From the IMG/VR virus record IMGVR_UViG_3300023297_001688, positions 1 to 32,174 of that record: DNA of 32,174 bases; one strand, given 5' to 3'. This DNA is from a virus. Shown piece by piece: positions 387 to 28,055 of this stretch; the stretch's first letter is position 1; every line of letters starts with the position of its first letter. The notes under the pieces were generated by a model. The model did no database searches. It was not told the DNA's origin and saw only the letters and a list, made by a program, of their open reading frames with translations. The position numbers and the translations under genes are program-made.

Positions 387-659
387 CTATCTGTGAGTTG
401 CTTTGAGACTAAGATGCAAGTGTGGCCTGGTAATTAGCAGTCTCTTTGCTTTTGGTGGTTGGCCGGGAACAACGACAATCTTTTGTTCTGGCAACGAAAT
501 ATCTATTACCATCCCTGGTTGCATCAGATTATATAGTTTCTCAGCATACTGAGATATTTCCCCTAGAGTCTTCTTTAGCCCTTCCCCTGAATACTTTGCC
601 TCTTCACCTATCTTCTTTTCAACCTTTTCTTTTAGTTCTATTTTCTCTTTATTAGTCAT
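387..659 (-). CDS. Hypothetical charged protein
   Basis: This encodes 90 residues. The N-terminal 45 are rich in Lys and Glu and probably helical, possibly a short coiled coil. The C-terminal half is more beta-like, with IDISLPEQKIVVVPGQPP at about residues 52 to 69. An AGGAG site eight bases upstream supports the ATG. It lies 13 bases before the proline-rich gene and 19 bases after the short ASCH-like gene, in the same direction. I do not recognise a family. Confidence 0.55.
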   Translation of the reverse strand: MTNKEKIELKEKVEKKIGEEAKYSGEGLKKTLGEISQYAEKLYNLMQPGMVIDISLPEQKIVVVPGQPPKAKRLLITRPHLHLSLKATHR

Positions 660-1144: not shown

Positions 1145-1903
1145 TTATTTATATATCACCCAGCCAGTTATGTTGTACTTCTTCTGCAATACCTTTCTAA
1201 ACTCCTTATACATCCTCTTTCTATATAAGAGATATTCATGGGGAACGCATTTAATATAGTTCGCAACGATATCCGGTGTCCAATACACGCCATATCCAGC
1301 CTGCTTAAAGCGCCAGAAGAAGTCCTCATGATCAGCTGTCTTTAAATCATTATCCCATCTGACGTGTTGTAGAGCCCATGTCTTTGCTATAAGAAACTGC
1401 CTGCAGATATCGCATTTTTTAACACGCAAGCTTGTTAGAATATCTATACACATAAGAACATTTTTTGTTAATATAAAATCCTCTTCGCCTAATTCCATAT
1501 CGTATTCCCAAGGGATTCTATCCTTTAAATCAAAACCAAGTATCCCCGCCTTATCAACAGAATTTAAAAAAACCGTAGCTGAATCAAGCTTCTTTACTGT
1601 GGCAGGAGTAAACTCAATGCTATCGGCAGTAACAATGCAATACTTTATCCCTCTATCCATTGCTTCCTGTACTAAAACATTGCGCGCCAGTGATACTCCG
1701 CAATCAAAAGGAAGTTTCGTATATTCAATAGCCTTGCCTGGATATAGTTTTTCGTAAAAGTCTAGCTTTTTAAAGTTTTCCCCTTGATCAGCTATCATTA
1801 ACACAAAATCATCACGCCAATTATCCACAATAGACTTTATTGTCCTCTCTGCTAACTCCTCCCGCAGGAATGTCGTATAGATTATAGCAATTTTAGGCTT
1901 CAT
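1145..1903 (-). CDS. GT-A fold glycosyltransferase with degenerate DxD
   Basis: This is a 252-residue single-domain protein. The N terminus (KIAIIYTTFLREE..ERTIKSI) is the nucleotide-binding start of a family 2-like GT-A fold. The stretch WDNDLKTADHEDFFWR at residues 183 to 198 resembles the galactosyl/N-acetylgalactosaminyl transferase C-terminal motif, W-D-x-x-LK-x-x-(E/D)H-x-x-F. The usual metal-binding DxD is replaced by TADS (residues 92 to 95), so metal use or activity may differ. There is no signal peptide or membrane helix, so it should act in the cytoplasm. It starts two bases after the KpsC-like gene, with its SD inside the end of that gene. It is the last gene of the glycan cassette. 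Donor and acceptor are unknown. Confidence 0.75.
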   Translation of the reverse strand: MKPKIAIIYTTFLREELAERTIKSIVDNWRDDFVLMIADQGENFKKLDFYEKLYPGKAIEYTKLPFDCGVSLARNVLVQEAMDRGIKYCIVTADSIEFTPATVKKLDSATVFLNSVDKAGILGFDLKDRIPWEYDMELGEEDFILTKNVLMCIDILTSLRVKKCDICRQFLIAKTWALQHVRWDNDLKTADHEDFFWRFKQAGYGVYWTPDIVANYIKCVPHEYLLYRKRMYKEFRKVLQKKYNITGWVIYK

Positions 1904-1905
1904 TT

Positions 1906-2886
1906 TTAATCCTTCTCCGTTAAATCCTCAATCAACCCCAAAATCTTTTCGGGATTATTTAGATCCCCGCTATGCCATTGCCGCTTAAAAAGGTAATGCA
2001 AAAAAGCACTGATCACGCCAATAGCAACCTTGCCCTTATTAGCCCACTCTACACCATCTTTAAACTCAGCATCATTAGTGACTCTATAAGTTAATCCACG
2101 AGCTTCGTAAAAAGCCCCTCCCAGATTGATGACCGGCTTATTGAAAGTCAGCGCCTCTACGCCCACTGTTGAATTGATTGTTACTACATACTTACAATGA
2201 GGCAGAAAATCTCCTATTGCGCCTACTTTGCATAATTCACAGCGGTCCGGAACTTTAATATCTGAAACATCTCCCTTTGGATGGGTTTTAAATATAATCT
2301 TGCCAGGGACAAATCTACATACATAATCCACAAGCTGCTGCATTTTCTTAAATCGAGGGGAATAATTAATGATCTGACTGTCGTTTTCAACCTGGAACGG
2401 GACAAACACAAAATCTTTAGGCGCCACAATGCTCGTTTTATCTATCTTCTTATGATATCCCTGTATCTTAGGTCTAAGCCAGTCTAATTGTTCCGAGGTT
2501 ATGCCCTTATGCTTCCAATCAACCATTGAACTGCCATAATTAACCCCCTTCCTGTCAAAATAAAAAGTTCCTCTCTGTGGAAACCATCCCAGCTCCATAA
2601 AATAAATGGGAATACCCATTTTTATGCACTTTTCAGCTAATATCTTCTCCGGCGATAATCCTCCATTCCACATAAACAACAAATCGCACTCAGGCAGCTG
2701 TTTATTAAACTCCGCCTCAGTTAGTGTGTCCTGTAGAGGTAGTATCTCGTTTTGCTTAGTGAAATACTTAACCTCAATGCCCGTGGCTGAAAATACTTTA
2801 GCCAGAGCCTTATAAATCTTAAAAATAGTATAGAGGTATCTCACCTGAGACTTAAAATAAAAAACCCCTACCATTATTATCTTCAT
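1906..2886 (-). CDS. KpsC/KpsS-like capsule polysaccharide (Kdo) transferase
   Basis: The 326 residues match the capsule polysaccharide biosynthesis family of KpsC and KpsS, which add beta-Kdo to the lipid anchor of group 2 capsules. Visible landmarks are MELGWFPQ (97 to 104), VPFQVENDSQ (162 to 171), KTHPKGD (200 to 206), TINSTVGVEAL (236 to 246) and LGGAFYEARGLTY (255 to 267). The HP and the NSTVGVEAL segment correspond to the family's conserved donor-site region. KpsC has two such modules, whereas this protein has one and is closer to KpsS in size. It overlaps the preceding radical SAM gene by ATGA, implying coupled translation. A phage copy suggests transfer of a sugar onto a surface glycan, but the actual donor may not be Kdo. 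Confidence 0.8.
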   Translation of the reverse strand: MKIIMVGVFYFKSQVRYLYTIFKIYKALAKVFSATGIEVKYFTKQNEILPLQDTLTEAEFNKQLPECDLLFMWNGGLSPEKILAEKCIKMGIPIYFMELGWFPQRGTFYFDRKGVNYGSSMVDWKHKGITSEQLDWLRPKIQGYHKKIDKTSIVAPKDFVFVPFQVENDSQIINYSPRFKKMQQLVDYVCRFVPGKIIFKTHPKGDVSDIKVPDRCELCKVGAIGDFLPHCKYVVTINSTVGVEALTFNKPVINLGGAFYEARGLTYRVTNDAEFKDGVEWANKGKVAIGVISAFLHYLFKRQWHSGDLNNPEKILGLIEDLTEKD

Positions 2887-3704
2887 TCTACTTCCTTCAT
2901 TTTTATTTGTCTCATCCTGGATTTTATTATTGCTGGTCTATCCCATATTTTTTGAAGATGTCTCCATTCTTTTGAGTGTTTTGTGTTCTTCTCATCCCTG
3001 TATAACATCGCAAATGGCAACGTGCCGATCTCCCATGCTCGCCTTAATCTTTGCTCAGCTTTCTCAATCGTATCATCTTGATAGCCTATTAAGACATAAC
3101 ATCGGATCTTGTTTCTGCCAAAATAATCACTCAATTTATTAACCGCTCTCCTTAATGGTTTTTCTGCATTAGAATGATCATAAGCAAGCCATAATTGATA
3201 GACGTTTAATCCTCGTAACTCTTGGACAATCCGATCAGTAACTCTTGCACTCTCAAGTCCACCGAGAAAATCAATTCGTCTTTGCTTAGATAACATCTGA
3301 AATACTTTATCTATATGAGATCTTGAGCAAGCAAGTAAATTGTTGTCTTGAATGATATTCCCTTCAACTATCGGTAATTCTCTGATTTTGCCCTCTCTTG
3401 CTGGAACAAAACAGAATGAACAGTTATTGGGACAACCCCTTGAAGTAATAACGCAACCTTTTTTTAAATATTTCCCCGCCACAAAATTATCTCCTGGATC
3501 ATTAAAAGCAGGACCACCAATTTTTACTACAGGATAATAAGCTTCCCAATTCTTTTTCATGTGCATTGCTAATTTAATATCCCACGTAAATGTAACGCTG
3601 ATATGAATCTCATCTGCTTTTGGTCTCCATAAATCAGGCAATCCAATCGCAACCCCAATAGGGGTCATAGATGTTAATCTTGGAAACACTCGCAATATCT
3701 TCAC
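2883..3704 (-). CDS. Phage-type radical SAM protein
   Basis: This 273-residue protein carries a radical SAM cluster motif CxxxCxxC at Cys91, Cys95 and Cys98, within TSRGCPNNCSFCFVP. Segments that recall a radical SAM group seen in phage and metagenome contigs are TFTWDIKLA (38 to 46), IGGPAFNDPG (62 to 71), a stretch around IIQDNNLLACS, and LPFAMLYRD late in the protein. The cluster should bind a 4Fe-4S centre and cleave SAM. The substrate is unknown. Translation starts at GTG, which overlaps the upstream TAG by one base (TAGTG). The next gene overlaps its stop by ATGA. Its place between a triple methyltransferase and a KpsC-like transferase suggests a role in the same pathway, though related phage proteins may act on nucleic acid. 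Confidence 0.8.
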   Translation of the reverse strand: MKILRVFPRLTSMTPIGVAIGLPDLWRPKADEIHISVTFTWDIKLAMHMKKNWEAYYPVVKIGGPAFNDPGDNFVAGKYLKKGCVITSRGCPNNCSFCFVPAREGKIRELPIVEGNIIQDNNLLACSRSHIDKVFQMLSKQRRIDFLGGLESARVTDRIVQELRGLNVYQLWLAYDHSNAEKPLRRAVNKLSDYFGRNKIRCYVLIGYQDDTIEKAEQRLRRAWEIGTLPFAMLYRDEKNTKHSKEWRHLQKIWDRPAIIKSRMRQIKMKEVE

Positions 3705-5506
3705 TATTTCCTCTCTATAATCAATGATGCATACGCATTACCCGGGGCGGGGATTATGGTATAGGTCACAGGTAGCCCCGAAAGAGCCTCTTTGATAGTC
3801 TTCTCGCTTATATATCGATGGTAATAAATCACTTTCTTGCCCGTAATAAGATCTGTTTCTTCGCATCGCCTGCAGACATCCTCGTCCTGAATATGTAAAA
3901 CTACATGCACAAACTTATCTGCAACATAAACCAGGTTTTCAAGCGCCCTCTTAAAATATGGCAGATGTATTAAAACTCTATAGCAGCATACAACATCAAA
4001 ATTTCTTGGCGAATAAATTTTAGTTAAATCAAAAATATCACCAGTAAAAAAAAGAGCATCCTCTTTTTCTTTTTCTTTATGAACAGCTTTCGCTGCCTCA
4101 ATAGCGCTTTCTTGTATATCTATTCCAATATAGTAAGATGCTTCATTTTTAAAAAACGTAGTTTTTTGCTTTAAAAAGTCATATACATATCCACCATAAC
4201 AGCCCACATCTAATATTTTTATTTTCCCATCCAAAGGACCGACAATCTTTTTCAGGGTAAGTAAATGAGATTGTATGTCACATATGTTATCCGGATTGGC
4301 GCACCAGCTTCTCACATCCTGCGATTGAGTCAGCTCAAATGGTTCCCTAACATTCTTTTCCTTGCCCGAGATCATAAAGTAATCAATATTATTAAAAGCT
4401 CCTCCTATTACTTTTACTTTTACTTTTCGGGCCCCTAATGCTTCATGGTTTTTTTGCAATTCTTCATGGTTATCATCACTTTTACGAAGTATCAACAACG
4501 ACTCATCCCGTAGCTTGTATTTATAAACAGACTCAACTACTGCCCCTATTTCTTTTGCTTTTCGCTCTAATAAATCCCGTTCTTTACATTTAACTGCTTC
4601 AATAACATAAATTCCGCCTTGCTTTAATTTATAATACAAAAAACCTAGGCTTGCTATCTGGCAATCAACTCTATGACTGCAATCGTCAATTACAATATCT
4701 AGTGTCCCGATTTCATTACAAACCTTATTTAAAAACACCGTATCTTCCTGCTTGCCTATAAATACCTTTTTTCTATCGCCTTCATAGTCCTTGCACTCCG
4801 GGACCATGTCAATTCCATTTATAGTCGCTTTGTCAAAATAATCCGCCCATATTTGCATCGAGGTCCCTTTTCCAATACCTAATTCAAGAACTACCCTTGC
4901 AGATCTCCGTAGGGGTTTAAGGTATTTCTCATACTCAACCATATAATCATGCCAATGACTGCTTTTATCGCTGCCATACTTTAATGCTAATTCATCAAGA
5001 CTCATCACTCTTTTATTCTTATGTGCTATTATACTCAAGTGCCAGGGTTGTATGTTTTTTTCTGCTTTTTCTACTGATTTAAACCCTATTGCTTTAAGAA
5101 TACTTGTCAACGCAACTTCAGTATATCCATAAAAATGCTGGTTAGCTTCTTCATGCCCTGGTGCCCAGCCATAAAGCCCTGCCATAGCATGCCTTATCTC
5201 ATCAGGAAAGCCACTTGTAACCTGCCCCAGTAATTGCTTAGCGTGAAAAGTAATATTAGGAACAGTTATAGCTACTTTCCCTGTTGGTTTTAATACTCTA
5301 TACCAATCTTTTAATATAGCCACACCTGCAACTCTATTAAAATGCTCTAACACATGCCTGCTACATACCTCGTCTATTGAATTATCCTCATATGGCAAGG
5401 GATTCACTATATCATGTACTAGATCCGGCTGAACATCTTCCCTGTTATCAATATTAATATAACCATCCAGCTTTTTATCCCCACATCCAATGTTTAACTT
5501 TTTCAT
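3704..5506 (-). CDS. Triple-domain SAM methyltransferase
   Basis: The 600-residue protein contains three class I methyltransferase domains. Domain 1 (1-165) has LNIGCG at 4 to 9 and a methyltransferase-11-type end of sheet. Domain 2 (about 167-342) resembles metal-dependent sugar O-methyltransferases of the MycE/ElmMI type, with LALKYGSDKSSHWHDY, LELGIGKGTS (207 to 216) and IDDCSH (273 to 278). Family members usually show IDDGSH and a later VIED, whereas here these read IDDCSH and VIEA (301 to 304), so the metal site may be altered. A repetitive NHEEL/NHEAL linker leads to domain 3 (about 400-600), with ILDVGCYGG (431 to 439). Its AAAGGAG site sits before ATG. Likely role: several O-methylations of one glycan. 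Confidence 0.85.
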   Translation of the reverse strand: MKKLNIGCGDKKLDGYINIDNREDVQPDLVHDIVNPLPYEDNSIDEVCSRHVLEHFNRVAGVAILKDWYRVLKPTGKVAITVPNITFHAKQLLGQVTSGFPDEIRHAMAGLYGWAPGHEEANQHFYGYTEVALTSILKAIGFKSVEKAEKNIQPWHLSIIAHKNKRVMSLDELALKYGSDKSSHWHDYMVEYEKYLKPLRRSARVVLELGIGKGTSMQIWADYFDKATINGIDMVPECKDYEGDRKKVFIGKQEDTVFLNKVCNEIGTLDIVIDDCSHRVDCQIASLGFLYYKLKQGGIYVIEAVKCKERDLLERKAKEIGAVVESVYKYKLRDESLLILRKSDDNHEELQKNHEALGARKVKVKVIGGAFNNIDYFMISGKEKNVREPFELTQSQDVRSWCANPDNICDIQSHLLTLKKIVGPLDGKIKILDVGCYGGYVYDFLKQKTTFFKNEASYYIGIDIQESAIEAAKAVHKEKEKEDALFFTGDIFDLTKIYSPRNFDVVCCYRVLIHLPYFKRALENLVYVADKFVHVVLHIQDEDVCRRCEETDLITGKKVIYYHRYISEKTIKEALSGLPVTYTIIPAPGNAYASLIIERK

Positions 5507-5518
5507 CTATCTCCTTTA

Positions 5519-5716
5519 TTAAACTTCATTTCCCCAAACATCCCAACCTAGAGTTTTTTCTCTCGCAAATAATTCTATTTTTTCTCCCACAAAGCACTTA
5601 TCAATTATATCTCTTACCATATCTGGTTTTTGAGAATGTTTTCTTCTAGGGGCTTCAAACCAAGTAGACCAATGTCTTTCTTTAGCGTTTATCTTTCCCC
5701 CAATCGCATAAACCAT
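5519..5716 (-). CDS. C-terminal fragment of an MT-A70 adenine methyltransferase
   Basis: Only 65 residues, but they match the C-terminal end of MT-A70-type N6-adenine methyltransferases. The landmarks are FEAPRRKHSQKPD, an ELFARE segment and a terminal GWDVWGNE, equivalent to the usual hSRKPdE...ELFAR...GWdvWGNE. The family's catalytic DPPW motif lies well upstream in intact proteins and is absent here. The preceding 35 bases overlap the end of the radical SAM gene in another frame. The SD (AGGT, four bases from ATG) is weak. I read it as the remnant left when an MT-A70 gene was replaced or deleted. A stand-alone small product that binds DNA or RNA cannot be excluded. Confidence 0.65.
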   Translation of the reverse strand: MVYAIGGKINAKERHWSTWFEAPRRKHSQKPDMVRDIIDKCFVGEKIELFAREKTLGWDVWGNEV

Positions 5717-6752
5717 TCTGACCTATATTGCCCCTAAAATTCATTTCATCTGTAAGAGGGTTGGCTCCCGCATAGAGATCTGTGCCAGGATATGCAATAA
5801 ACTTATACCATCCACCCCTGCCCACTTTTCCATAGTTCCTTTTAATAAAATCAATGGTAGCTTGCTTTTCTTCAGGGGTCTCAGTAGGCGCGCCATACAT
5901 AAAGGCTGCAGTTACCGGAAGCCCTATTTTATTGGCAATATCTATTGTTCTCTGGTTATCTTCTACTGTGGCCTGTTTATTTAAAAATTTTAGCATCCTG
6001 TTACTACCGCTCTCCGCTCCGAATCTGATACTCCCGAAATGCATCTCTTTCATAGCCAAACCAATCTCCTCAGTAAATAGAGAAGCGCGAACATAACCGG
6101 TCAATTGAGTTCGTTTATTTAATTCCTTTTCCATCCAGAGATCATGTATCCTGTAAAATCTTTTCTTATTGGCTATAAATAAATCATCAACTAAATAAAT
6201 GCCTTTTGATTCAGGGTATTTTTTAAGAGCATATTCAACCTCTTCTATGAAATACTCAGGCGAGGAGTACCTGGCTTTCTTCCAAAAAGCATGACTGCTG
6301 CAGTATTTGCAATTAAAAGGACATCCTCTGATAGAAAATATAGGGACCACAACACCACATTTGCCTCTGTCGGGGAAATTAAGAACGTCAATATCTTCTA
6401 TCAATGGTTCGCGCATGACTTTCTGGGTGGATCCGTCTATAATCTTCTGAAAAGCAATCTCACCCTCGCCAATAATGATGTGTTTAAAGTCATAATCCTG
6501 CAGACCATCCCATAATGTCCCATAACCACCAATAATCACAGGAATTGATGTGGAATAAAGGATGCTGATAGCCTCTTTTATTCCATGCGCAGTAGCTGTC
6601 AATCCTATCAGATCACAATCTACAAGATCTGCCCTATTCTGCACAATCTCTACCTCAGCGTCCTTGCAATTTGTCTTTAGATAGCCAAGACCCATATGAT
6701 ACTCTGTAAGGGACGGCTCATCTCCACACATGTATAGTTTTATTTTCATCAT
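5682..6752 (-). CDS. Radical SAM protein with B12-binding-like N terminus
   Basis: This is a 356-residue protein. Residues 1 to about 110 look like the Rossmann-type cobalamin-binding domain of class B radical SAM methyltransferases (DLIGLTATAHG, PVIIGGYGTL, HIIIGEGEIAFQKII), but the DxHxxG motif that ligates cobalamin from below is missing. The radical SAM core follows with Cys144, Cys148 and Cys151 in SIRGCPFNCKYC. Further landmarks are VDDLF, RFGAESGSNRMLKFLNK and a stretch ending in MYGAPTETPEE, typical of the Elp3/MiaB-like core. The gene overlaps the DNA methyltransferase by ATGA. In glycan or natural-product clusters such enzymes methylate or rearrange unreactive carbons. The substrate is unknown here. 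Confidence 0.8.
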   Translation of the reverse strand: MMKIKLYMCGDEPSLTEYHMGLGYLKTNCKDAEVEIVQNRADLVDCDLIGLTATAHGIKEAISILYSTSIPVIIGGYGTLWDGLQDYDFKHIIIGEGEIAFQKIIDGSTQKVMREPLIEDIDVLNFPDRGKCGVVVPIFSIRGCPFNCKYCSSHAFWKKARYSSPEYFIEEVEYALKKYPESKGIYLVDDLFIANKKRFYRIHDLWMEKELNKRTQLTGYVRASLFTEEIGLAMKEMHFGSIRFGAESGSNRMLKFLNKQATVEDNQRTIDIANKIGLPVTAAFMYGAPTETPEEKQATIDFIKRNYGKVGRGGWYKFIAYPGTDLYAGANPLTDEMNFRGNIGQNGLCDWGKDKR

Positions 6753-7381
6753 ATCCCTAATACTCCTTGTGATAGTCTTTTGGCAGTCATTTCGCAGTAT
6801 TCTTCCTTAGTATCAATCCCAATCGCTTTCCGGCCCTGATTTTTTGAGGCCAACAAAGTTTGCCCCGAGCCCATAAATGAATCTAATACTATATCTTGTA
6901 GGTCCGACCAAATATTTATAATGAAATTCATGTGGCTAATTTTACGCGGGCAGGGATGTTCTGTTTCTTTGCCAATTTTCCCAATGCTAGTAAATTCGCC
7001 CCTAATAAGCCTCCGCCCCGGAATAGATTTGGGAGGTGCGCCATATAAATACGCAACATTCGAGGTATTTAATAATCGTCCTTTGTGTCCTGGTAGATTA
7101 TACCTAAGCCAACAAACTCGAAAAAATTGCGTGTGGATAGGTCCTAATATCCCAGGATCAGAATCACAACCAAGTAAAATAGCAATTCTTTTTATCTCTG
7201 CCGGCAGTAGATCCGCAAAATCTTTAAATAATGAATATGGGTTTATGTCTTTAAATTCTTCTACTGAATTATTTGGCCATACTGGGTCTGTTATCACAAC
7301 GTCATATTTAAGGCCCGGCATAATCTCTCTGCAGTCGCCATGATAAATAGTGCAATAATCATCTTTATAATATGGTTTCAT
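6749..7381 (-). CDS. DNA (N4-cytosine or N6-adenine) methyltransferase, beta type
   Basis: A 210-residue complete-looking DNA methyltransferase. The catalytic motif IV comes first as TDPVWPNN (31 to 38), and the SAM-binding motif I comes last as LDSFMGSGQT (166 to 175), followed by GIDTKEEYCEMTAKR. This order is that of the beta group. The catalytic tetrapeptide reads DPVW rather than the usual DPPY/DPPW or SPPY. I recall DPVW in some phage enzymes. No restriction endonuclease is adjacent, so it is an orphan that probably protects phage DNA or marks it. It overlaps both neighbours by four bases (ATGA), tying its expression to the glycan cassette. Target sequence unknown. Confidence 0.85.
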   Translation of the reverse strand: MKPYYKDDYCTIYHGDCREIMPGLKYDVVITDPVWPNNSVEEFKDINPYSLFKDFADLLPAEIKRIAILLGCDSDPGILGPIHTQFFRVCWLRYNLPGHKGRLLNTSNVAYLYGAPPKSIPGRRLIRGEFTSIGKIGKETEHPCPRKISHMNFIINIWSDLQDIVLDSFMGSGQTLLASKNQGRKAIGIDTKEEYCEMTAKRLSQGVLGI

Positions 7382-7878
7382 AATAAATTTAAAACCCTCC
7401 TATCAGCATCTCTACGCACAACAGAAATTCCCAATTGATTCGCAGGGAAAGTCACAACGTCCAATGATATATGCCCTGTCCAAATATAATTAATAATTTT
7501 ATAAGAATCGGCGCAGCTTGTAGGTACAAGACGTTCCTGAGTTGACGGATCAGTATCATGTATTAAGATAGTTCCACCTAGATTCAATAATAATAAACTA
7601 TTTTCAAAGTCCTTCTTGAGCTGCTCAAATCTATGATCACCATCAATAAAAATGACATCAACCTTATCATGAAACTGTTTGAAGAACTCATCAGATGTCA
7701 TTTCATAGAACTCACACGGATATGTAAGTCTATTTTTAATGTCTACTCCAATAGCTCTCTTCACTAAGGGCTTAACCATATCAAACGTACTACCCTTAAA
7801 CACTCCAATCTCCAAATAAGTCTGCGCTCTTTGCGATTTTACAACCCAGCATACCAACTCAGGATAAGTTCCTAACAC
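7378..7878 (-). CDS. Class I SAM methyltransferase (Methyltransf_24 type)
   Basis: The 166-residue protein shows TYLEIGVFKGSTFD (residues 20 to 33) as the SAM-binding loop and IFIDGDHRFEQLKKDF (about 96 to 111), the metal- or substrate-site signature of the Methyltransf_24 group. A TILIHDTDP follows. This group includes sugar and small-molecule O-methyltransferases. Translation starts at GTG with AGGAGG six to seven bases upstream. The GTG overlaps the TAG of the glycosyltransferase gene by one base, and its stop overlaps the DNA methyltransferase start by ATGA. Neighbour glycosyltransferases suggest a sugar hydroxyl as acceptor. Confidence 0.8.
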   Translation of the reverse strand: MLGTYPELVCWVVKSQRAQTYLEIGVFKGSTFDMVKPLVKRAIGVDIKNRLTYPCEFYEMTSDEFFKQFHDKVDVIFIDGDHRFEQLKKDFENSLLLLNLGGTILIHDTDPSTQERLVPTSCADSYKIINYIWTGHISLDVVTFPANQLGISVVRRDADRRVLNLL

Positions 7879-8684
7879 TATACTCCTCCTCTAAGTTTAT
7901 TTAGATGATCCTTTAGCGAAGCAAATTTCGCTACCATATGCCCCTCGCCTAACCTATCTTTCCAAAGCGACATGCTTCCATAATGATGAACATATTTATC
8001 TAACTCCGGAATTGATATTTTATGCATTTTAAACCCTCTTGGATTATCAAATACCAACCTCGTTGCAAACTTCATGCCCGTATCATACTCAACTCTATCT
8101 CTAGTTAATTCAACGTCTTCAAACCATTCCGAAAGCTCTTTCTCATGTCCAACTATTTTATCTTTAAATTTACGCTTAAACTCGCTCATAGATTCTTTAA
8201 ACAAGCCCCAGTCATCAGCCTGCCTAAACTGCCGATAAAGATGCATGTTGAATACTAAACATGCAGGATGGAACCATGGAAGCTGCAAGAAATCAAATCC
8301 AGCCCTATTCATTCCCCTAACAAAACCCCCTATTCCCAAATCCTGTTCATAATTTGGAAGCTTGCTCATAAAGAAATCCAACCAATCGGATCTCATTATT
8401 TCAACATCGCTATCTAATACACAAGCGTAGTCAGTATCGCAATGAGTTAATAAAGCGTTCAATGATATTACATGTGCCTGCCTCTTTGGTACTTCTATCA
8501 ACTCCAAAATCCCGCCATCTCTGCAGGCTGCTAAATATGACCGCTCGGCGCTATCTACCGGAGATGAATCGCATACCACTATTTTATATGGCTTATATGC
8601 CGTTCGCTTCTTAATGCTCTCAATGCAAAGATACAGGGCTTCATGCGGACACCAGCTTGGTATTAAAATTGATACTGTTTTCAT
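7878..8684 (-). CDS. Family 2 glycosyltransferase
   Basis: A 268-residue GT-A protein. VSILIPSW at the N terminus begins the nucleotide-sugar fold, and CVLDSDVE supplies the DxD at Asp91 and Asp93. The C-terminal part is charged, with KMHKISIPELDKYVHHYG, and has no membrane helices. The start ATG has AGGAG five bases upstream. It lies eight bases after the upstream methyltransferase gene and abuts the next methyltransferase by TAGTG. An alternating glycosyltransferase and methyltransferase order suggests stepwise addition and methylation of sugars. Donor unknown. Confidence 0.85.
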   Translation of the reverse strand: MKTVSILIPSWCPHEALYLCIESIKKRTAYKPYKIVVCDSSPVDSAERSYLAACRDGGILELIEVPKRQAHVISLNALLTHCDTDYACVLDSDVEIMRSDWLDFFMSKLPNYEQDLGIGGFVRGMNRAGFDFLQLPWFHPACLVFNMHLYRQFRQADDWGLFKESMSEFKRKFKDKIVGHEKELSEWFEDVELTRDRVEYDTGMKFATRLVFDNPRGFKMHKISIPELDKYVHHYGSMSLWKDRLGEGHMVAKFASLKDHLNKLRGGV

Positions 8685-8692
8685 CGCTGCTC

Positions 8693-9235
8693 CTATTTTA
8701 AAGTTGCGAACTGTTTGATAAGCTCATCTTTTAAATCATCTAGGACTTTATTCTCAGATGCTATTCCTACAACAGTATGAGGAAATTTGGGATCTCCTAT
8801 AAAATCAACAAGAGCAAAAGTAAAAGGCTTTAAAAGACTCAAAAATCCCTCTGGGGTAAAACGCCAGTAATCATGTGTATCGTGTATCGGGCAACGCATA
8901 ACAGAACTTATAATGAAAAACCCTCCTAGTTTAAGAATTCTATAGGCTTCGTCAACTGCTTCCCTTAAATATTCTACATGTTCAAAGGTATCAAGACTAA
9001 GAACTGTTCCTGCGGACCCTAAAATAATGGGAGTGCTGCTCATATCCATCACCACATCGACTCCATCCCCATCTCTTATGTCAGCCCCCACATACTTCTT
9101 ACCCAGGAAAAGCGGTCTAAGATCAGCGAATCCTTTTTGCCCAGGTACTTGGTAAGAGCCAAACTCATATATAGGCTCCAGGATTGGGAGCGTCTTAGAA
9201 CATATTTCTACAAACTGTTTTATTAATGGCCGCAT
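8693..9235 (-). CDS. Class I SAM methyltransferase (Methyltransf_11-like)
   Basis: The 180 residues form one methyltransferase domain. PIYEFGSYQVPGQKGFADLR near residue 21 replaces the usual GxGxG loop with a looser EFGSYQVPGQ. VGADIRDGDGVDVVMDM gives the acidic end of strand 2. VLSLDTFEHV and EAYRILKLGGFFIIS are the family's post-motif helices and strand. HDYWRFTPEGF is common in relatives found in O-antigen and glycan clusters. AAAGGAG precedes ATG. It follows the 44-residue membrane gene by ten bases. Its substrate is probably a sugar in the same pathway. Confidence 0.8.
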   Translation of the reverse strand: MRPLIKQFVEICSKTLPILEPIYEFGSYQVPGQKGFADLRPLFLGKKYVGADIRDGDGVDVVMDMSSTPIILGSAGTVLSLDTFEHVEYLREAVDEAYRILKLGGFFIISSVMRCPIHDTHDYWRFTPEGFLSLLKPFTFALVDFIGDPKFPHTVVGIASENKVLDDLKDELIKQFATLK

Positions 9236-9245
9236 ATTAACTCCT

Positions 9246-9380
9246 TTATATTTTTTTCATATATGGCGTTAAACACATAAGTATAGCGGATAAAAGACCA
9301 TTAGTAATATCTCCTCTTTGAAAACTAATAATCCCCATGACCATCCAAATTAAAGCTAGAATTGTTTTAAATAGCCTCAT
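9246..9380 (-). CDS. Small membrane protein, 44 residues
   Basis: ATG at 9380 overlaps the stop of the upstream methyltransferase by ATGA and opens 44 codons to TAA at 9246. The product begins MRLFKTILALIWMVMGIISF, has a short RGD-containing turn, and ends with a second hydrophobic stretch before YMKKI. It is probably two short transmembrane segments. The overlap, the coverage of an otherwise empty 141-base gap, and the SD of the next gene just after its stop all argue that it is real. It might anchor cassette enzymes at the membrane, but no family is recognised. Confidence 0.6.
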   Translation of the reverse strand: MRLFKTILALIWMVMGIISFQRGDITNGLLSAILMCLTPYMKKI

Positions 9381-9949
9381 CTCTTCTCCCCTATATAAAA
9401 ATTACATAAACTATTACCAAAATACATTAATTCCGCCCTTTTAGGCTTATATCCCATACTCCAGAACCTATCTACCAGCTCATCCATGCCGTAATGCTTA
9501 AAATGAAACTTATTGCTCCCCATAGGGCATTTTAGATGCGGAGTAGATACTATAAATAGTTCGGGATTTATGGATTTAAAAATATGAAACACTTCATCAG
9601 TGTCTTCAATATGTTCTATTGCTTCAAAAGACACCACAACATCTATTTGCTCCCATAATGGAGGACTAAAATCCAAAAAATCCTGCGCCTTATATCTAAT
9701 GTTAGGTGATTTGTAATGCTCATTTGCAAACTCTATTGCCTCAACGCTATCATCAACCCCAATCACGTCCTTGGCTATCTTAGCCATGATATAGCTTCCA
9801 TATCCAACCCCGCAGCACATATCCAGCACCCTCTTGCCTTTAGCATATGCTGTTGCCTCGTAATATCTCTGTAAATGATCCTCTCTTATTTGAACCAATG
9901 TAGCGCCCCTCTGCCTTTCGCCCGACCTTAAAGACTTGTCTCTCCCCAT
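9377..9949 (-). CDS. Class I SAM methyltransferase
   Basis: A 190-residue methyltransferase with a well-formed SAM loop, RVLDMCCGVGYGSYIMAK (about 40 to 57), and VIGVDDSVEAIEFAN after strand 2. SFEAIEHIEDTD marks the motif after strand 4. It resembles methyltransferase-11/25 proteins of O-antigen clusters. ATG overlaps the TAA of the large glycosyltransferase gene by one base, and its TGA overlaps the small membrane gene by ATGA. It is likely translated in a fixed ratio with both neighbours. Acceptor unknown. Confidence 0.82.
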   Translation of the reverse strand: MGRDKSLRSGERQRGATLVQIREDHLQRYYEATAYAKGKRVLDMCCGVGYGSYIMAKIAKDVIGVDDSVEAIEFANEHYKSPNIRYKAQDFLDFSPPLWEQIDVVVSFEAIEHIEDTDEVFHIFKSINPELFIVSTPHLKCPMGSNKFHFKHYGMDELVDRFWSMGYKPKRAELMYFGNSLCNFYIGEKR

Positions 9950-11883
9950 TATATAAGCTCCTTTCTATATTTTTCTCTTAAAATTCCATGTGTTAGGGTA
10001 CTCTCTGCATTCCCGCATAAATGCTCACCGGCGTGTCTTCGATATATCAGTGTCGGTTTATCCAAAAACCTAAACTTAAATTTCTCAAAATTTCGCAGTG
10101 TATATTCATAATCAAATGCCCTTGCATAATTTTCATCAAATTTTTCCTTTTCCAGAACGTGCCTGCGCATGAAAAAAGTTCCTCCGGCAATCCATCCCTT
10201 ATCAAAGCAAAGTTGTTTTTTATCCACTGCTCCATGGCTAACCACTTTTATCCCCCCGGATATATCCTCTTCCTTGTATGCTGAATGGATAATATCTACA
10301 TCCGGTTTCATCGCTTCCAATTGATTCTTGATCCTGTCTGGCAGCATAATATCATCAGAATCCATGAGTACAATAAATTCCCCCTTCGATCTCTCAAATA
10401 ACTTGTTTCTCATATTGCATGAGCCGATTGATTGTTGTTTAATATAAATTTTTATTCTAGGATCCTGAAATTTTTGAATAACCTCTCCTGTTTTTGTCTG
10501 TGGTAAGCCGTCTATCCCGATTAATAACTCAAAATTCTTATAGCTTTGCTTTAAAACGCTTTCTATTGCGTCTTTTATATATTCTTCGTGATTCAGGGTA
10601 GGCATTAAAATTGAAATCAATGGCATAGTTAAGTGTTTTCTTGTAAAATCATTCCATCGTTCTTTGGGTATATCACGCGGTTGATACGTACCCCATTTTT
10701 CCTTAAATACCTGATCCGTCTTTGGAAGCAGCCTATATCCCTCGTCTTTACATCCCAATCCTCCTACATGCTCAACAAAGCCCTTGGAAATAACAGACCA
10801 AAATCCATGCCTTATTGCCCGCAAACAATAATCATCATCCTCGCCCCCATAGTAAGCAAATCGTTCATCCAATAAGCCCACCACGTCTAACACTCTGCGA
10901 GGAATTAATACAGCAAACATATTCAGGGTATTCGCTGTTTCCCATGAAAAATCTCCGTTATATGCTTCCTGATTGCTGCATCCTCCATGCTGGGTCCTTG
11001 CGCCAACCAACGTAGGCCCTAATTGTTCACAGCTTGAAATCATCTCCTCAAGCCAGTTTCTACGTGGGAGAGTATCATCATTTAAAATACAGATATATTT
11101 TCCTACTGCTGCTTCTATGCCCAAATTAACCCGATGAGCAAAAATAAACGGTCTATTAGTTAATATAACCTCGCCGTATGTTCTTAGTTTGTCCTGGAAT
11201 TCAACACTATTATCCATGACAAAAATAATTTCATAGCTATTTGTATTCTTAATAATGGCGTCTATGCAGTTTTTTGTGCAATCCCAGTTATTGTGGGTGG
11301 GTATAATTATTGAGGCTACTATTGATTTCTTTATAATCTTAATTCCGCGTTTAAGACATGCGTCCTGCAAAACTACAAAAAGTTCTAATTCTCTTCCCCA
11401 CCTGGAATTCTTATGATCTGTTTTAATATTTTCTAAATTCTTAACAAAATACCCCTCTCCTCTCATATCTGCGCCATATAACTTGATTGTTTTGGCGCCC
11501 TTTAGAACTGCCAGAGCTATTGCGGCAAAGACACTATACTCAGCCCATGAAAAATCCTTATTAAACGGCATGATACTCCCGAGGTCTTTGCCTGGATATG
11601 TCTCTTTCTTGGTCTGTTTGAATAAATCGTTTAAATCGGGACACCATCTATGCATGTGATTGTTCCAGTTCTCTGGGATCCATAATTTCATATCTTCTGT
11701 TTTGACTTCCTTTACACATCTCGTAAAAACAGCATAATCCATTATTGCCCAATATGCAACCTTAACATCTTTTAATATTGCCCCATTAACAGCTATTGAA
11801 TGCTCAGGGTCATATCGAAGCTTTTTAACTGAAAGCTTGCTCAGTGATGGCCCGGGACAAAATATAGTCCATTCGTTATTCAT
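9949..11883 (-). CDS. Three-domain MptE-like / GT2 / GT2 protein
   Basis: The 644 residues hold three units. Residues 1 to about 187 (TIFCPGPSLSKL, IAVNGAI, YWAIMD, IKLYGADMRGEGYF) match the MptE-like/DUF115 Rossmann fold found next to glycosyltransferases. Residues about 188 to 415 form a GT2 domain, with ASIIIPTHNNWDC, NDDT at 268 to 271, and GGEDDDYCLRA (346 to 356) near the catalytic base. Residues about 418 to 644 form a second GT2 domain, with SILMPTLNHEEYI and DSDD at 508 to 511. Both DxD-type sites look intact. The SD (GGAAGA) is weak, so coupling to the upstream gene three bases away is likely. It should transfer two sugars in turn. Confidence 0.87.
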   Translation of the reverse strand: MNNEWTIFCPGPSLSKLSVKKLRYDPEHSIAVNGAILKDVKVAYWAIMDYAVFTRCVKEVKTEDMKLWIPENWNNHMHRWCPDLNDLFKQTKKETYPGKDLGSIMPFNKDFSWAEYSVFAAIALAVLKGAKTIKLYGADMRGEGYFVKNLENIKTDHKNSRWGRELELFVVLQDACLKRGIKIIKKSIVASIIIPTHNNWDCTKNCIDAIIKNTNSYEIIFVMDNSVEFQDKLRTYGEVILTNRPFIFAHRVNLGIEAAVGKYICILNDDTLPRRNWLEEMISSCEQLGPTLVGARTQHGGCSNQEAYNGDFSWETANTLNMFAVLIPRRVLDVVGLLDERFAYYGGEDDDYCLRAIRHGFWSVISKGFVEHVGGLGCKDEGYRLLPKTDQVFKEKWGTYQPRDIPKERWNDFTRKHLTMPLISILMPTLNHEEYIKDAIESVLKQSYKNFELLIGIDGLPQTKTGEVIQKFQDPRIKIYIKQQSIGSCNMRNKLFERSKGEFIVLMDSDDIMLPDRIKNQLEAMKPDVDIIHSAYKEEDISGGIKVVSHGAVDKKQLCFDKGWIAGGTFFMRRHVLEKEKFDENYARAFDYEYTLRNFEKFKFRFLDKPTLIYRRHAGEHLCGNAESTLTHGILREKYRKELI

Positions 11884-11886
11884 TAT

Positions 11887-12405
11887 CTAAATCTTCCCTT
11901 CCCAAACTGTTTCAATGTCCTTTGACCTGGCAAAATCCGCAACATAGCAATGTTCAGGAGCTATCCCGCCCAATGCTCTTGAGCATTCTTTTTGTAGCGA
12001 CCAGAGAGCTAATTCAACACAGAAAAACAATCTTTTGCTTTGCTTAAATAGCCAACTGAAACGAAAAGCTAGTACACCCAGCCAATCATAAGAAAGATTG
12101 CATTTTGATGATGCCCAGAACGCCACCTTATATCTTTTTTTCCGCTCATACAAGCCGTTCTTATAACGAACCAGTCTTATAGTACGCCCCTTATGCCTTT
12201 TTCTAAAATCAACAACCTTTGTTTTAGGAGCAATTACGGAAACACTATATGGGCCGCCACCGCATATCTCTATATGCGTCCAGCAAGCTTCATCTTTAAC
12301 AAACCCCGCCTTTAACTGTTCTTTTTCAATCTGCTTAGAGATAAAGCCCCCATCTGACTTAAAAAGTATGAAGTAACCCATTCTAAATCTATTTAGATCT
12401 ATCAT
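11887..12405 (-). CDS. Permuted papain-like (NlpC/P60-type) hydrolase
   Basis: The 172-residue protein has the layout of circularly permuted NlpC/P60 enzymes (YiiX/YaeF type). The catalytic His comes first in CWTHIEI (His44), and the Cys comes late in LFFCVELAL (Cys129), with YDWLG (106 to 110) between them. These enzymes cleave amide or ester bonds in peptidoglycan, lipids or proteins. There is no signal peptide, so a lysis role would need a holin or another route. ATGA overlap with the zinc-ribbon gene places it in the early operon, directly before the glycan cassette. Precise substrate unknown. Confidence 0.7.
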   Translation of the reverse strand: MIDLNRFRMGYFILFKSDGGFISKQIEKEQLKAGFVKDEACWTHIEICGGGPYSVSVIAPKTKVVDFRKRHKGRTIRLVRYKNGLYERKKRYKVAFWASSKCNLSYDWLGVLAFRFSWLFKQSKRLFFCVELALWSLQKECSRALGGIAPEHCYVADFARSKDIETVWEGKI

Positions 12406-12575
12406 ATCTTTACCTCCGTAATTCTAGCCTCTTTAACATAATCACAAGAACAACAACTAAGCTGTCCAGAACCCTTAATAATTTCAAATTTCATAACATC
12501 CTCGCATTTAGGACACGGCACATAATCCCCGTCCCCATCCTCTTTCTCTTTAATAAAAACTATAACTACTTTCAT
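12402..12575 (-). CDS. Zinc-ribbon protein, 57 residues
   Basis: ATG at 12575 has a strong AAGGAGG six bases upstream, which lies within the preceding small gene. The 57-residue product contains CPKC (residues 21 to 24) and CCSC (41 to 44), a two-knuckle zinc ribbon, after a hydrophobic N terminus MKVVIVFIKE. The stop overlaps the next ATG (ATGA), and the start overlaps the upstream TGA (ATGA). Such proteins often bind nucleic acid or a protein partner. No family name is justified. Confidence 0.75.
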   Translation of the reverse strand: MKVVIVFIKEKEDGDGDYVPCPKCEDVMKFEIIKGSGQLSCCSCDYVKEARITEVKI

Positions 12576-12679
12576 TTTATCCTCCTTATTAAATCAACTA
12601 TCTGCGCAATCATTGCGCATAATACAATCGGATATCCCCAGCTAAAAAACAGAGCAATAATAATTATTTTTATAATCAT
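12572..12679 (-). CDS. Small membrane protein, 35 residues
   Basis: A 35-codon frame starts at 12679, overlapping the nuclease stop by ATGA, and ends at 12572, overlapping the zinc-ribbon start by ATGA. The product is one hydrophobic helix (MIIKIIIIALFFSWGYPIVL) ending in the basic LIRRIK, so probably N-out/C-in by the positive-inside rule. The back-to-back overlaps are the main evidence. No family is recognised. Confidence 0.55.
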   Translation of the reverse strand: MIIKIIIIALFFSWGYPIVLCAMIAQIVDLIRRIK

Positions 12680-13041
12680 CCCATTACCTTCTTATGTAAT
12701 CTTCTCTTGGATTTTCCCTGCCCTGGAATTGTGTATCCAGGAAGAAGCATGTCTATGAATTTAACCAACTCATCAATATTATCTCTAACTACGATATAAT
12801 GAGCACTCTTTTCTAATAAATGCCTTATCTCTTTTTGCTCATCCGTTAATTTTCCTTCCCCTGTTTTACATTCTATATAGAAATGTGGATAATACACCTC
12901 AAAGTCCGGATGCCCTGTTGCTTTTGAATTCTGCACCTGTCCACATTTAAAGCAACGATAGTTATCAACTCGCATATATCGCAAGTTCCTTGCATCTAGT
13001 AAGTCCGCAACTGCTTGTTCTAAGTCCTTACTTCGAGTCAT
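12676..13041 (-). CDS. VRR-NUC nuclease
   Basis: The 121 residues carry the PD-(D/E)xK core of VRR-NUC enzymes: GHPDFEVYY with Asp46, then YIECKTGEG with Glu57 and Lys59, then LTDEQKE with Gln69. A CFKCG knuckle (Cys30, Cys33) precedes it and could bind zinc with other residues. Phage VRR-NUC proteins resolve branched DNA during replication and recombination. It sits one base after the cysteine-rich gene and just downstream of the replication protein, as expected for a DNA-processing role. Confidence 0.85.
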   Translation of the reverse strand: MTRSKDLEQAVADLLDARNLRYMRVDNYRCFKCGQVQNSKATGHPDFEVYYPHFYIECKTGEGKLTDEQKEIRHLLEKSAHYIVVRDNIDELVKFIDMLLPGYTIPGQGKSKRRLHKKVMG

Positions 13042-13042
13042 C

Positions 13043-13372
13043 TTATCTCATCCCTATTATATTTACGCTATGGACCACGGGGTTATAAAATCCTTGACTC
13101 TGATGTAGTTTTTTACATCCCGGGCAGAACCTGTATCTTTTAGTATCGCTACTCATAAGCCATCTTCCACATACATCAAAATTAAAGCATCTTATTCTTG
13201 TTCTTTTTTGCTTGAATTGCGATTTCTTTTTCTCTAGCTTCTTATGGTAACCCTGACGATATACCATCATGTAACTTCTCATATATTCCCTAAAATAATG
13301 TTTTTTACATAATCCTCTACCATGATGCTGTCGATAACACCCCTCCACACTACATAGTTTTAATGTTCTCAA
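13043..13372 (-). CDS. Cysteine-rich zinc-binding protein
   Basis: This encodes 109 residues with two metal-site candidates. The first is CSVEGC...RGLCKKHYFR (residues 7 to 28), a common small phage or HNH-associated motif with the pattern C-x4-C-x8-C-x2-H. The second is CFNFDVC (about 62 to 68) with FCPGC (about 82 to 86). The middle is very basic, which suits DNA or RNA binding. The best start is TTG in a TTGA overlap with the replication gene stop, with AGGA seven bases upstream. No HNH catalytic residues are complete, so I call it a binding protein only. Confidence 0.65.
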   Translation of the reverse strand: MRTLKLCSVEGCYRQHHGRGLCKKHYFREYMRSYMMVYRQGYHKKLEKKKSQFKQKRTRIRCFNFDVCGRWLMSSDTKRYRFCPGCKKLHQSQGFYNPVVHSVNIIGMR

Positions 13373-14208
13373 AATGAAATCCTATGTTTTTCTCTAGTTT
13401 CTTTTGTTAATGCTTTATATCCCGGGCGTTGATCATAAGGCACAGACTTCTCTTTAGCTTTTAGTTCTGGTTCTGATTTCAGCTTTAAGTTCCCAACCTT
13501 CCACTCAGGGAATTTTTTTACTACAGTCTCTATTGTCCAAACCAATTTCTTCTTATCGCAATATTTCCCAGTTTCTTTCATGCATATAAATGATTGTTTA
13601 AGATTGCCGGTCAGTTCTAAAATTGCTTTTGCTGATTTACTAGCTCTAGCAAAATAATATTCATCCCAATTAGGGATTTTTTCAAAGCCCTTAATTAATT
13701 TATAATTAAAAACAATCTCCTGAATAGGAGATAGTAGTGTTTTCTTTTGTGAAAGAGTTTCTTTTGTTATGTTCACTTTCTGAACATGGTTCTTAGCACA
13801 ATTCCCATGTTCACTTTCTGGACATGCTAAATGTTTCCCATGTTCACTTTCTGAACATGGGGATTCTTTACCCAGAAAAACCTTTCCTAATCTATAAAAT
13901 ATTTTATTATGCCGTCTTTCTGCAGGCGTTTTAAGTATTTTGCCATTTTCGTTTCTTGTTTCAATCCACCCATTTTTCACACAACCATCAACGGCTCCGG
14001 AGATAGATGTAGGTCCTCTCCCAGCTTTTTGCTCTATTTGAGAACGCGTTATCCAGTCTTCCGTTTTTCTCATTCCTGTTGTATGGTCCACTTCCCAGCC
14101 AAAAGTAGATCTCGTTACGATTAAAACCACTCTCAATTCGGTATCAGACATCTTCTTCATTTCGTTATTGAAGAGTTCGTTGGGCGTTGGGGTGGTATTA
14201 GGTATCAT
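13369..14208 (-). CDS. Lambda-O-like replication initiation protein
   Basis: A 279-residue protein. Residues about 5 to 95 form the winged-helix domain of phage replication proteins: TPTPNELFNNEMKKMSDTELR, VLIVTRSTFGWE, TEDWITRSQIEQKAGRG, and an NGWIETR wing. The middle (about 117 to 147) is a low-complexity SEHG-rich linker encoded by three DNA iterons. The C-terminal half is basic, as in O-type proteins that recruit a helicase loader. AAGGA precedes the ATG at 14208. No helicase or loader gene is visible nearby, so the phage may use the host replisome. Confidence 0.8.
   Translation of the reverse strand: MIPNTTPTPNELFNNEMKKMSDTELRVVLIVTRSTFGWEVDHTTGMRKTEDWITRSQIEQKAGRGPTSISGAVDGCVKNGWIETRNENGKILKTPAERRHNKIFYRLGKVFLGKESPCSESEHGKHLACPESEHGNCAKNHVQKVNITKETLSQKKTLLSPIQEIVFNYKLIKGFEKIPNWDEYYFARASKSAKAILELTGNLKQSFICMKETGKYCDKKKLVWTIETVVKKFPEWKVGNLKLKSEPELKAKEKSVPYDQRPGYKALTKETREKHRISF
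13769..13858. repeat. Three palindromic iterons, probable replication origin
   Basis: Three 19-bp copies start at 13769, 13807 and 13840. Each reads ATGTTCA, CTTTC, TGAACAT (7-bp inverted arms, 5-bp centre). The middle copy has one change (TGGACAT). They lie inside the replication protein gene, as lambda ori lies in O. Copy 13769 is translated in a different frame from the other two, so the DNA rather than the peptide is conserved. The AT-rich stretch at about 13680 to 13725 next to them could be the unwinding region. Confidence 0.75.
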
Positions 14209-16430: not shown

Positions 16431-16453
16431 CTATCTCCTATGTGTTAGCTTTT
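16431..16453 (-). repeat. 23-bp direct repeat copy B (SD cassette)
   Basis: Identical over 23 bases to 16167-16189. It encodes KLTHRR plus the stop codon of the ASCH-like gene and provides AGGAG for the MazG-like gene. Confidence 0.7.
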
Positions 16454-17039
16454 TAAATTCTATTACCCAAACCCACGGATTATCTTCCCATCTATGCTCT
16501 TTCTTGTGGATTGAGTTCCAAAGCATTTTCATTCCACCTACCATAATGCAATATGGCAAATAATCTTTCCCTGTTAATAATTTGACAGCTAATTCAGGTG
16601 TCATACCTTCTGCTATGGCATCTTCTGAGGTCATGTTTCTTAATTTCTCTACTCTTATATCTGTTATCTCAAGGGTAATTCTTGAGTAATTACGAGGCAT
16701 ATGGATTGATGGTTTCCATTTAGGACTTTCTAAATAATTATCAGCTTTATAATAAATTCCTTTTGGTATAATTATTTTACCAACATAAGTAATATCCTTT
16801 TTTACCTCAATCCAAGTTTCCCTAACCCACAATCTATCTCCAACTTTGCCATAGGGACATTTATAGTATCGTTCTTCATCAAAAAATCCATAACCATTCT
16901 CGTCCCCTAAGTCATGGCATTCAATTGTAATTCCATTTGGAGGATATGGCTGTGGCTTAATAACTCTCCTCGTCTGTATTTTTCTTCCTTCTAATATTGC
17001 CTTAACCATTTCAGTATTAAATATTATAGGTCTATCCAT
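16431..17039 (-). CDS. ASCH-like phage protein
   Basis: 202 residues with the typical landmarks of this phage family: IIFNTEMVKAILEGRKIQTRRVIKPQP at the N terminus, GDRLWVRETW, HMPRNYSRITLEITDIRVE, then MTSEDAIAEGM and a late MLWNSI..WVWVIEF. The length matches the family's usual ~200. The ASCH fold is related to PUA domains and probably binds RNA or nucleotides. GGGGAGA precedes the ATG. It is the full-length relative of the gene at 679-1128. Confidence 0.8.
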   Translation of the reverse strand: MDRPIIFNTEMVKAILEGRKIQTRRVIKPQPYPPNGITIECHDLGDENGYGFFDEERYYKCPYGKVGDRLWVRETWIEVKKDITYVGKIIIPKGIYYKADNYLESPKWKPSIHMPRNYSRITLEITDIRVEKLRNMTSEDAIAEGMTPELAVKLLTGKDYLPYCIMVGGMKMLWNSIHKKEHRWEDNPWVWVIEFKKLTHRR

Positions 17040-24315: not shown

Positions 24316-24567
24316 CTACTTTTTAATTAATCCAAGACTGAGTATGGTTACTATATTCGCCAGTATTCCGGGCGACTTCTTGCTAGAATATGTTATTGTG
24401 GTATTACCATCCTTGTCTATTGTTTTTGTTATATCCATAGGCTTGTTACTATCCGCCTTCACACCTGTTGGAGTTATATCTAATGTGCCATGATATCCAG
24501 CACAACCTGCCATAGCGAGTATCGCCATTGCAAAAACTATTGATAATGCTACTATTGACATCTTCAT
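24316..24567 (-). CDS. Small predicted lipoprotein
   Basis: 83 residues. The N terminus is a signal peptide with lipobox AMAGC, where the Cys at about residue 22 would be lipidated. The mature part is short and mostly polar (DITPTGVKADSNKP) with a hydrophobic C-terminal LANIVTILSLGL. It overlaps the discoidin gene by ATGA. Small lipoproteins in tail operons can be spanins or superinfection-exclusion factors. No Rz partner overlaps it, so neither is supported further. Confidence 0.65.
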   Translation of the reverse strand: MKMSIVALSIVFAMAILAMAGCAGYHGTLDITPTGVKADSNKPMDITKTIDKDGNTTITYSSKKSPGILANIVTILSLGLIKK

Positions 24568-28053: not shown

Positions 28054-28055
28054 AA

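Follow-up and report, generated by a model that had tools for sequence, protein, structure and literature searches.

The window, i.e., the whole stretch of 32,174 nucleotides analyzed here, constitutes one entire virus record (IMGVR_UViG_3300023297_001688), whose likely genes are all located on the minus strand. Tail genes and a tape measure gene occupy 17.5-31.8 kb, replication-type genes follow at 12.7-17 kb, and a cassette of glycosyltransferase (GT), methyltransferase and radical SAM (S-adenosylmethionine) genes, the subject of this study, lies at 1.1-11.9 kb. According to gene calls and searches against Pfam, PHROGs and NCBIfam, the cassette (1145-11883, single strand) encodes in total five GT domains, six class I methyltransferase domains, one DNA methyltransferase, an MT-A70 remnant, two radical SAM enzymes, one MptE/sialyltransferase-like domain (identified by fold) and a membrane peptide of 44 residues (Table 1). 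These searches confirm the gene and domain counts of a preliminary description made from the sequence letters.

The GTs carry DXD-like and ED motifs, both radical SAM proteins the motif CxxxCxxC, and most methyltransferases SAM-binding motifs. Membrane spans are predicted in none of the cassette enzymes; the 44-residue peptide has one. No genes for nucleotide-sugar synthesis, flippases or polymerases were found in the cassette, which supports the earlier view of a phage-borne glycan and methylation cassette devoid of these functions. From right to left, the internal junctions measure -1, -4, +10, +8, -1, -4, -4, -35, +12, -1, -4 and +2 bases, such that 10 of 12 fall within -4 to +10 bases, the remaining two being -35 and +12.

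Contigs and loci compared with the window are denoted by L-numbers. L005 overlaps the window (100% over 3,886 bases) and extends past its left edge into the genes for the small (TerS) and large (TerL) terminase, L002 overlaps it (99.96% over 4,614 bases) and extends past the right edge into tail tube, tail terminator, head-tail adaptor and capsid genes, and L004 shows 100% identity across the entire cassette. Because identical contigs link it to TerS and TerL, the cassette is phage DNA adjoining the terminase genes. Its G+C content is 38.2% vs 39.0% elsewhere in the window, and composition therefore shows no sign of recent import. The preliminary description had named two ways in which its reading could fail. 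Misassembly of host DNA is ruled out, as the same cassette sequence occurs, identical, in three further contigs, where phage genes adjoin it. Nor are the genes separate from phage structural genes: the cassette is linked to TerS and TerL, and a second GT and methyltransferase cluster lies among head-tail genes.

This second cluster (cluster 2) is located on L002, outside the window and so beyond the view of the preliminary description. A GT family 2 (GT2) gene follows the capsid gene, and a methyltransferase-GT fusion (580 residues), a GT4-type protein and an FkbM-type methyltransferase are encoded between the head-tail adaptor and gp10-like genes. The latter three genes overlap each other or structural genes by 4, 4, 11 and 20 bases; none of this type were found in the same interval of three relatives. 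On L003, cluster 2 and the tail genes are 100% identical to those of L002 and are followed by a different replication and terminase module, so that cluster 2 appears to travel with the virion genes. Since L002 stops where the window-type and L003-type versions diverge, two co-existing recombinants are suggested. A recombination fork was observed in the tail-fibre-like gene (window 27113-27561; L061, L062, L002), with an upstream module identical in two phages and unrelated replication/terminase modules downstream.

Table 1. Genes of the cassette from right to left on the minus strand, followed by two neighbouring phage genes
Feature	Position	Strand	Evidence and remarks
GT3x, 644 residues, first cassette gene: N-terminal MptE/sialyltransferase-like domain (~1-187) + GT2 + GT2	9949..11883	-	PF00535 twice; homologues in five related elements
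Class I methyltransferase, 190 residues	9377..9949	-	PF13847 1e-13; 55% identical counterpart in L189 cassette
Single-span membrane peptide, 44 residues	9246..9380	-	Sequence and translation
Class I methyltransferase, 180 residues	8693..9235	-	PF08241 2.5e-7
GT2 glycosyltransferase, 268 residues	7878..8684	-	PF00535 1.8e-10; DSD, ED motifs
Methyltransf_24 (MT24) protein, 166 residues	7378..7878	-	PF13578 5e-11; MT24 proteins also in L064, L186, L191 cassettes
N6/N4 DNA methylase, 210 residues, probable passenger	6749..7381	-	PF01555 1e-16; phrog_67 2e-32
RSAM2, B12-type radical SAM enzyme, 356 residues	5682..6752	-	PF04055 4e-20
MT-A70 C-terminal remnant, 65 residues	5519..5716	-	PF05063 positions 124-172 of 172; 35-base overlap with RSAM2
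Protein with three class I methyltransferase domains, 600 residues	3704..5506	-	Pfam and phrog_21658 matches ~1-150, 168-308, 406-551; SAM-binding motifs at 5, 208, 433
RSAM1, stand-alone radical SAM protein, 273 residues	2883..3704	-	Separate widespread phage family
KpsC-like protein, 326 residues, predicted retaining beta-Kdo transferase	1906..2886	-	PF05159 1.7e-17
GTa, GT2-like, 252 residues, last and best conserved cassette gene	1145..1903	-	53-62% identical counterparts ending four other cassettes
g387, small conserved phage protein downstream of cassette	387..659	-	Homologues near cassette in L175, L189, L191, also in cassette-free relatives
g56, small conserved phage protein, last gene before TerS on L005	56..373	-	Homologues in L064, L189, L086

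Recurrence of the core in related phages and prophages

A search with the KpsC-like protein found L064 (62% identity), the contig of which also carries a related terminase; L189 and L191 were found by a GTa alignment, and L175 and L186 came from Omnitrophota genomes. In L064, L189, L186 and L191, ParB-like genes or others of the replication region precede the cassette, whose first gene is the MptE/sialyltransferase-like one and whose last gene is GTa; L064, L189 and L187 (the continuation of L186) proceed from the cassette to TerS and TerL. Two types were distinguished. Type A (window, L064, L189) is composed of the MptE/sialyltransferase-like domain, GT2-GT2, one or more methyltransferases, the KpsC-like protein, which occurs in these three cassettes, and GTa. 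Type B (L186, L191) comprises the MptE/sialyltransferase-like domain, a GT2-like protein, MT24, a different radical SAM protein and GTa. L175 has the MptE/sialyltransferase-like domain and one methyltransferase. Identities to the window amount to 38-46% for the MptE/sialyltransferase-like domain, 55-56% for GT2-GT2, 62% for the KpsC-like protein and 53-62% for GTa. The cassette is a recurrent core at a fixed site, combined with variable inserts, in related phages and Omnitrophota prophages.

One translation programme had been proposed for all these genes. The tight junctions hold, the single twelve-gene unit does not: RSAM1 is present at 49 viral loci that have no neighbours in common, and the core-bearing L064 and L189 show no radical SAM protein in the cassette. 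Variation of the middle genes, the independent appearance of RSAM1, the DNA methyltransferase and the MT-A70 remnant, and a peptide deformylase, acyl carrier protein or reverse transcriptase nearby in relatives would fit accessory genes that have merely accumulated at an insertion hotspot and share no joint product. We consider this improbable, since three phages retain the core (MptE/sialyltransferase-like domain, GT2-GT2, methyltransferase, KpsC-like protein, GTa) in the same order and with its catalytic residues, at identities of 45-62%.

A match to PF00535 was found in only 2 of 50 records sharing TerL, so that the module is an accessory of part of the phage group; a common trait of the group is ruled out. 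In the TerL tree, cassette carriers fall outside a 73-row clade (Shimodaira-Hasegawa-like approximate likelihood-ratio test, SH-aLRT, 99), and the tree leaves the branching among carriers unsettled. Isolated phages yielded no close relatives of the core, their matches being confined to GT2 domains below 60% identity, two weak KpsC-like and ten weak RSAM1 matches.

Terminases of at least 53% identity were found at 25 genome loci, 20 of which are named Omnitrophota; two of these 20 belong to Ca. Velamenicoccus archaeovorus, whose genome is complete. The host of the window phage thus probably belongs to this phylum. L186 adjoins cellular-type genes on an 82-kb contig, and consequently the phage group includes prophages; the window phage itself is tailed and probably temperate. 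A chromosomal origin of the cassette in Omnitrophota was rejected: a GTa search of 285 genomes gave one prophage match and two weak matches, and the KpsC-like protein (see below) fared similarly.

Some neighbouring features were noted in passing. Beside the L191 cassette (11367-14105), a gene resembling reverse transcriptases is accompanied by two proteins whose C-terminal parts are similar and rich in tryptophan; by inspection, the arrangement looks like a diversity-generating retroelement. Acyl-carrier-protein-like genes lie near the cassettes of L186 (2450-2698) and L189 (12143-12382), one of them confirmed by PF00550. In the window, phrog_874 paralogues (679-1134 and 16431-17039, the left copy being shorter) flank the replication/cassette block and share DNA segments of about 50 bases at 83-87% identity. 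Three consecutive tail-region proteins (24316-24567, 24564-25670, 25687-28059) have hydrophobic, signal-peptide-like N-termini, one being lipoprotein-like; one of the three matches a phage tail protein family, and similar proteins occur in L061.

Predicted activities of the encoded enzymes

The KpsC-like protein belongs to the Capsule_synth/KpsC-WbbB sequence family, and its profile matches WbbB 5fa0 (6e-9) and KpsC 6mgd (6e-7). WbbB residues E158, N179, Q228, V229, D232, S233 and H265 correspond to E98, N116, Q165, V166, D169, S170 and H202, and all seven are identical in the three phages (window, L064, L189). In WbbB, D232 is the nucleophile, E158 the base and H265 the histidine of the HP motif (PMC9587256); D169, E98 and H202 align with this nucleophile Asp, general base Glu and HP-motif His. 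As the seven active-site residues are kept, the protein is likely an active retaining transferase of beta-linked 3-deoxy-D-manno-oct-2-ulosonic acid (beta-Kdo). Its presumed donor, cytidine monophosphate (CMP)-Kdo, is made by KdsB, and of 117 Omnitrophota genomes, 110 have a kdsB match that exceeds the cut-off. A search of 285 Omnitrophota genomes for the KpsC-like protein itself returned one partial match only (35%).

For the N-terminal domain of GT3x, the MptE-like designation of the preliminary description stands with respect to fold and finds no clear echo in sequence comparisons: no Pfam match was obtained (PF01973, PF06002), hhalign against an MptE-like alignment aligned one 26-column motif and no more, and the phrog_4603 sialyltransferase match is weak (7.5e-4). 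Foldseek with the model alone (predicted local distance difference test, pLDDT, 69) gave nothing usable, and the fold matches reported here come from realigning Foldseek candidates. The model aligns with MptE of M. jannaschii (HPPK, 8sd5) at Z 9.9 over 148 residues (3.6 A) and with the sialyltransferase CstII (1ro7) at Z 8.1 over 146 residues (4.2 A). Sialyltransferases score around Z 8; altogether, MptE and CMP-dependent sialyltransferases reach Z 6-10 vs at most 4.5 for unrelated rows, and judged by this model the domain shares its fold with both. A CST-I family search found no match anywhere, the controls likewise remaining without match. The GT2-GT2 part of GT3x resembles chondroitin synthase 2z86 (E 6e-23). 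GTa has no Pfam match and is named GT2-like from weak NCBIfam matches (WcaA 3e-7) and the motifs TADS and HEDFFW.

By its sequence matches, RSAM2 is assigned to the B12-binding type, near several methylases: TIGR04013 (3.6e-22) and B12-dependent methylase families of NCBIfam, all under cut-off, 9ccb (4e-9) and, weakly, the sugar-acting AprD4 (6fd2, 7.5e-4). RSAM1, in contrast, is an independent, widespread phage family unrelated to the cassette core, and its 49 viral loci mostly lack GTs. Its AlphaFold model (pLDDT 91.6) is nearest to the methylthiotransferases RimO and MtaB, the fold search yielding a general methylthiotransferase-like fold and nothing more specific. Some members of this family (L008-L053) lie beside SSB, DnaB-like or DNA methylase genes. 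The DNA methyltransferase and the MT-A70 remnant are probably passengers.

Probable target of the pathway and comparison with known systems

Our favoured reading, to which we assign a probability of about 0.48, is that the soluble enzymes use sugar donors of the host to make a methylated glycan with Kdo in it and attach this glycan to virion proteins. We infer substrate order, acceptor, benefit and host of this pathway as follows. The MptE/sialyltransferase-like domain and the GT2 enzymes would draw on sugar nucleotides of the host to make a short oligosaccharide, to which the KpsC-like enzyme would add beta-Kdo, or a related ulosonic acid, from host CMP-Kdo. The class I methyltransferases, perhaps together with RSAM2, would methylate the glycan. 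One or more virion proteins would serve as acceptor; their modification would take place in the cytoplasm, either ahead of particle assembly or while it proceeds, as proposed for phage Corndog (see below), and the resulting coat may change adsorption or shield the particle. A more specific version remains doubtful: that in a lineage of Omnitrophota phages the virions receive a coat of methylated glycan bearing beta-Kdo, made by a recurrent module whose first and last genes are fixed, with a phage-encoded retaining Kdo transferase and a sialyltransferase-like enzyme that both take CMP-sugars from the host.

Virion proteins are the most likely acceptor because the cassette sits among packaging and structural genes: GT and methyltransferase genes adjoin virion structural genes both upstream of TerS and TerL and, in cluster 2, among the head-tail genes of L002. 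Several points weigh against this. The case for a virion target comes from where the genes lie and not from chemistry, and both glycan and acceptor are predictions. Cluster 2 is tied to the window phage by an overlap of 4.6 kb, and L003 joins the same upstream region to another downstream module. WbbB and KpsC act on lipid-linked glycans in the cytoplasm (WbbB: PMC9587256), so that soluble enzymes are compatible with a host-surface target. Since the group includes prophages, expression of the cassette in lysogens is possible.

The strongest rival explanation is accordingly host-surface conversion, in which the enzymes cap or extend host O-antigen or capsule on a lipid carrier in the cytoplasm, beta-Kdo and methyl groups acting as chain terminators as in ABC-transporter-dependent O-antigens, and thereby block adsorption of competing phages. 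Methyl caps are a known chain terminator. Relatives are integrated in Omnitrophota genomes, and no phage flippase would be required. The rank of this rival follows from WbbB, which caps O-antigen in the cytoplasm before export (PMC9587256). Still, we regard it as unlikely: the cassette contains no GtrA, membrane-anchored GtrB or O-acetyltransferase, its genes continue the row of replication and packaging genes instead of forming a lysogeny unit of their own, five GT domains are more than capping would require, and the genes of cluster 2 are set among virion genes. For the host-surface conversion considered in the preliminary description, the defining parts of the gtr type are lacking. Phage gtr operons resemble the cassette in their GT2 proteins, and two GT2 domains weakly match GtrB-like PHROGs; the cassette differs from them in its soluble enzymes and several methyltransferases and in having neither GtrA nor a membrane-anchored GtrB.

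Hypermodification of DNA, with GTs and methyltransferases decorating modified bases of the phage genome against restriction, would account for the DNA methylase and the MT-A70 remnant inside the cassette. Virus-encoded GTs that glycosylate DNA have been reported (Pyle 2024, as cited in PMC12619734), and RSAM1 lies beside DNA methylases in some phages. However, no hydroxymethylase, TET/JBP-type oxygenase or base kinase was found in the available sequence, which leaves out part of the genome between portal and capsid; this makes DNA glycosylation less likely. Moreover, relatives of the KpsC-like and GT2-GT2 proteins act on saccharides, and the cores of L064, L189 and L186 contain no DNA-modifying gene. 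We regard this explanation as very improbable.

Modification of virion proteins thus remains the preferred reading, and by analogy its nearest precedent is mycobacteriophage Corndog (cluster O). There, gp35-gp38, an O-methyltransferase, two GTs and an N-acetylglucosamine (GlcNAc)-transferase, lie inside the virion operon, comparable to the GT and methyltransferase genes within or beside virion genes here, and a complex methyl/glycan modification of the capsid has been proposed (PMC4351075). In contrast to the cassette, the Corndog cluster consists of four genes between portal and protease, its description mentions no KpsC-like, MptE-like or radical SAM gene, and the host is actinobacterial. 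Mycobacteriophages are also reported to bear virion glycans (Freeman 2023, as cited in PMC12619734). The earlier statement that no phage system with this set had been described was therefore too strong. Our literature searches found no description of this module.

Bacterial counterparts are related to single parts of the cassette. WbbB (GT99) and KpsC (GT107) correspond to the KpsC-like protein in sequence match and, for WbbB, in the seven active-site residues compared; the bacterial enzymes have O-antigen or a lipid-linked capsule linker as their acceptor, whereas the phage protein is a single short module. For flagellin glycosylation by Maf, which we take to be an MptE-like (DUF115) transferase family, the proposed analogy is cytoplasmic glycosylation of proteins by an MptE-like transferase. 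Maf proteins act in the cytoplasm (PMC4065374). Unlike the cassette, Maf systems include nonulosonate synthesis genes and flagellin, both absent from the window and the flanking contigs, and by sequence the GT3x domain is at most a candidate member of the MptE-like PF01973.

Taken together, the cassette resembles what has been suspected before in a small number of cultured phages, on a larger scale and with other equipment. Very few phages are known to glycosylate their virions, and the locus supplies enzymes that can be tested, among them a likely beta-Kdo transferase of phage origin whose active-site residues are intact, along with a comparative series of six elements that separates the core from variable inserts. 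It adds a trait to the phages of the Omnitrophota, a poorly known bacterial phylum with almost no cultured members.

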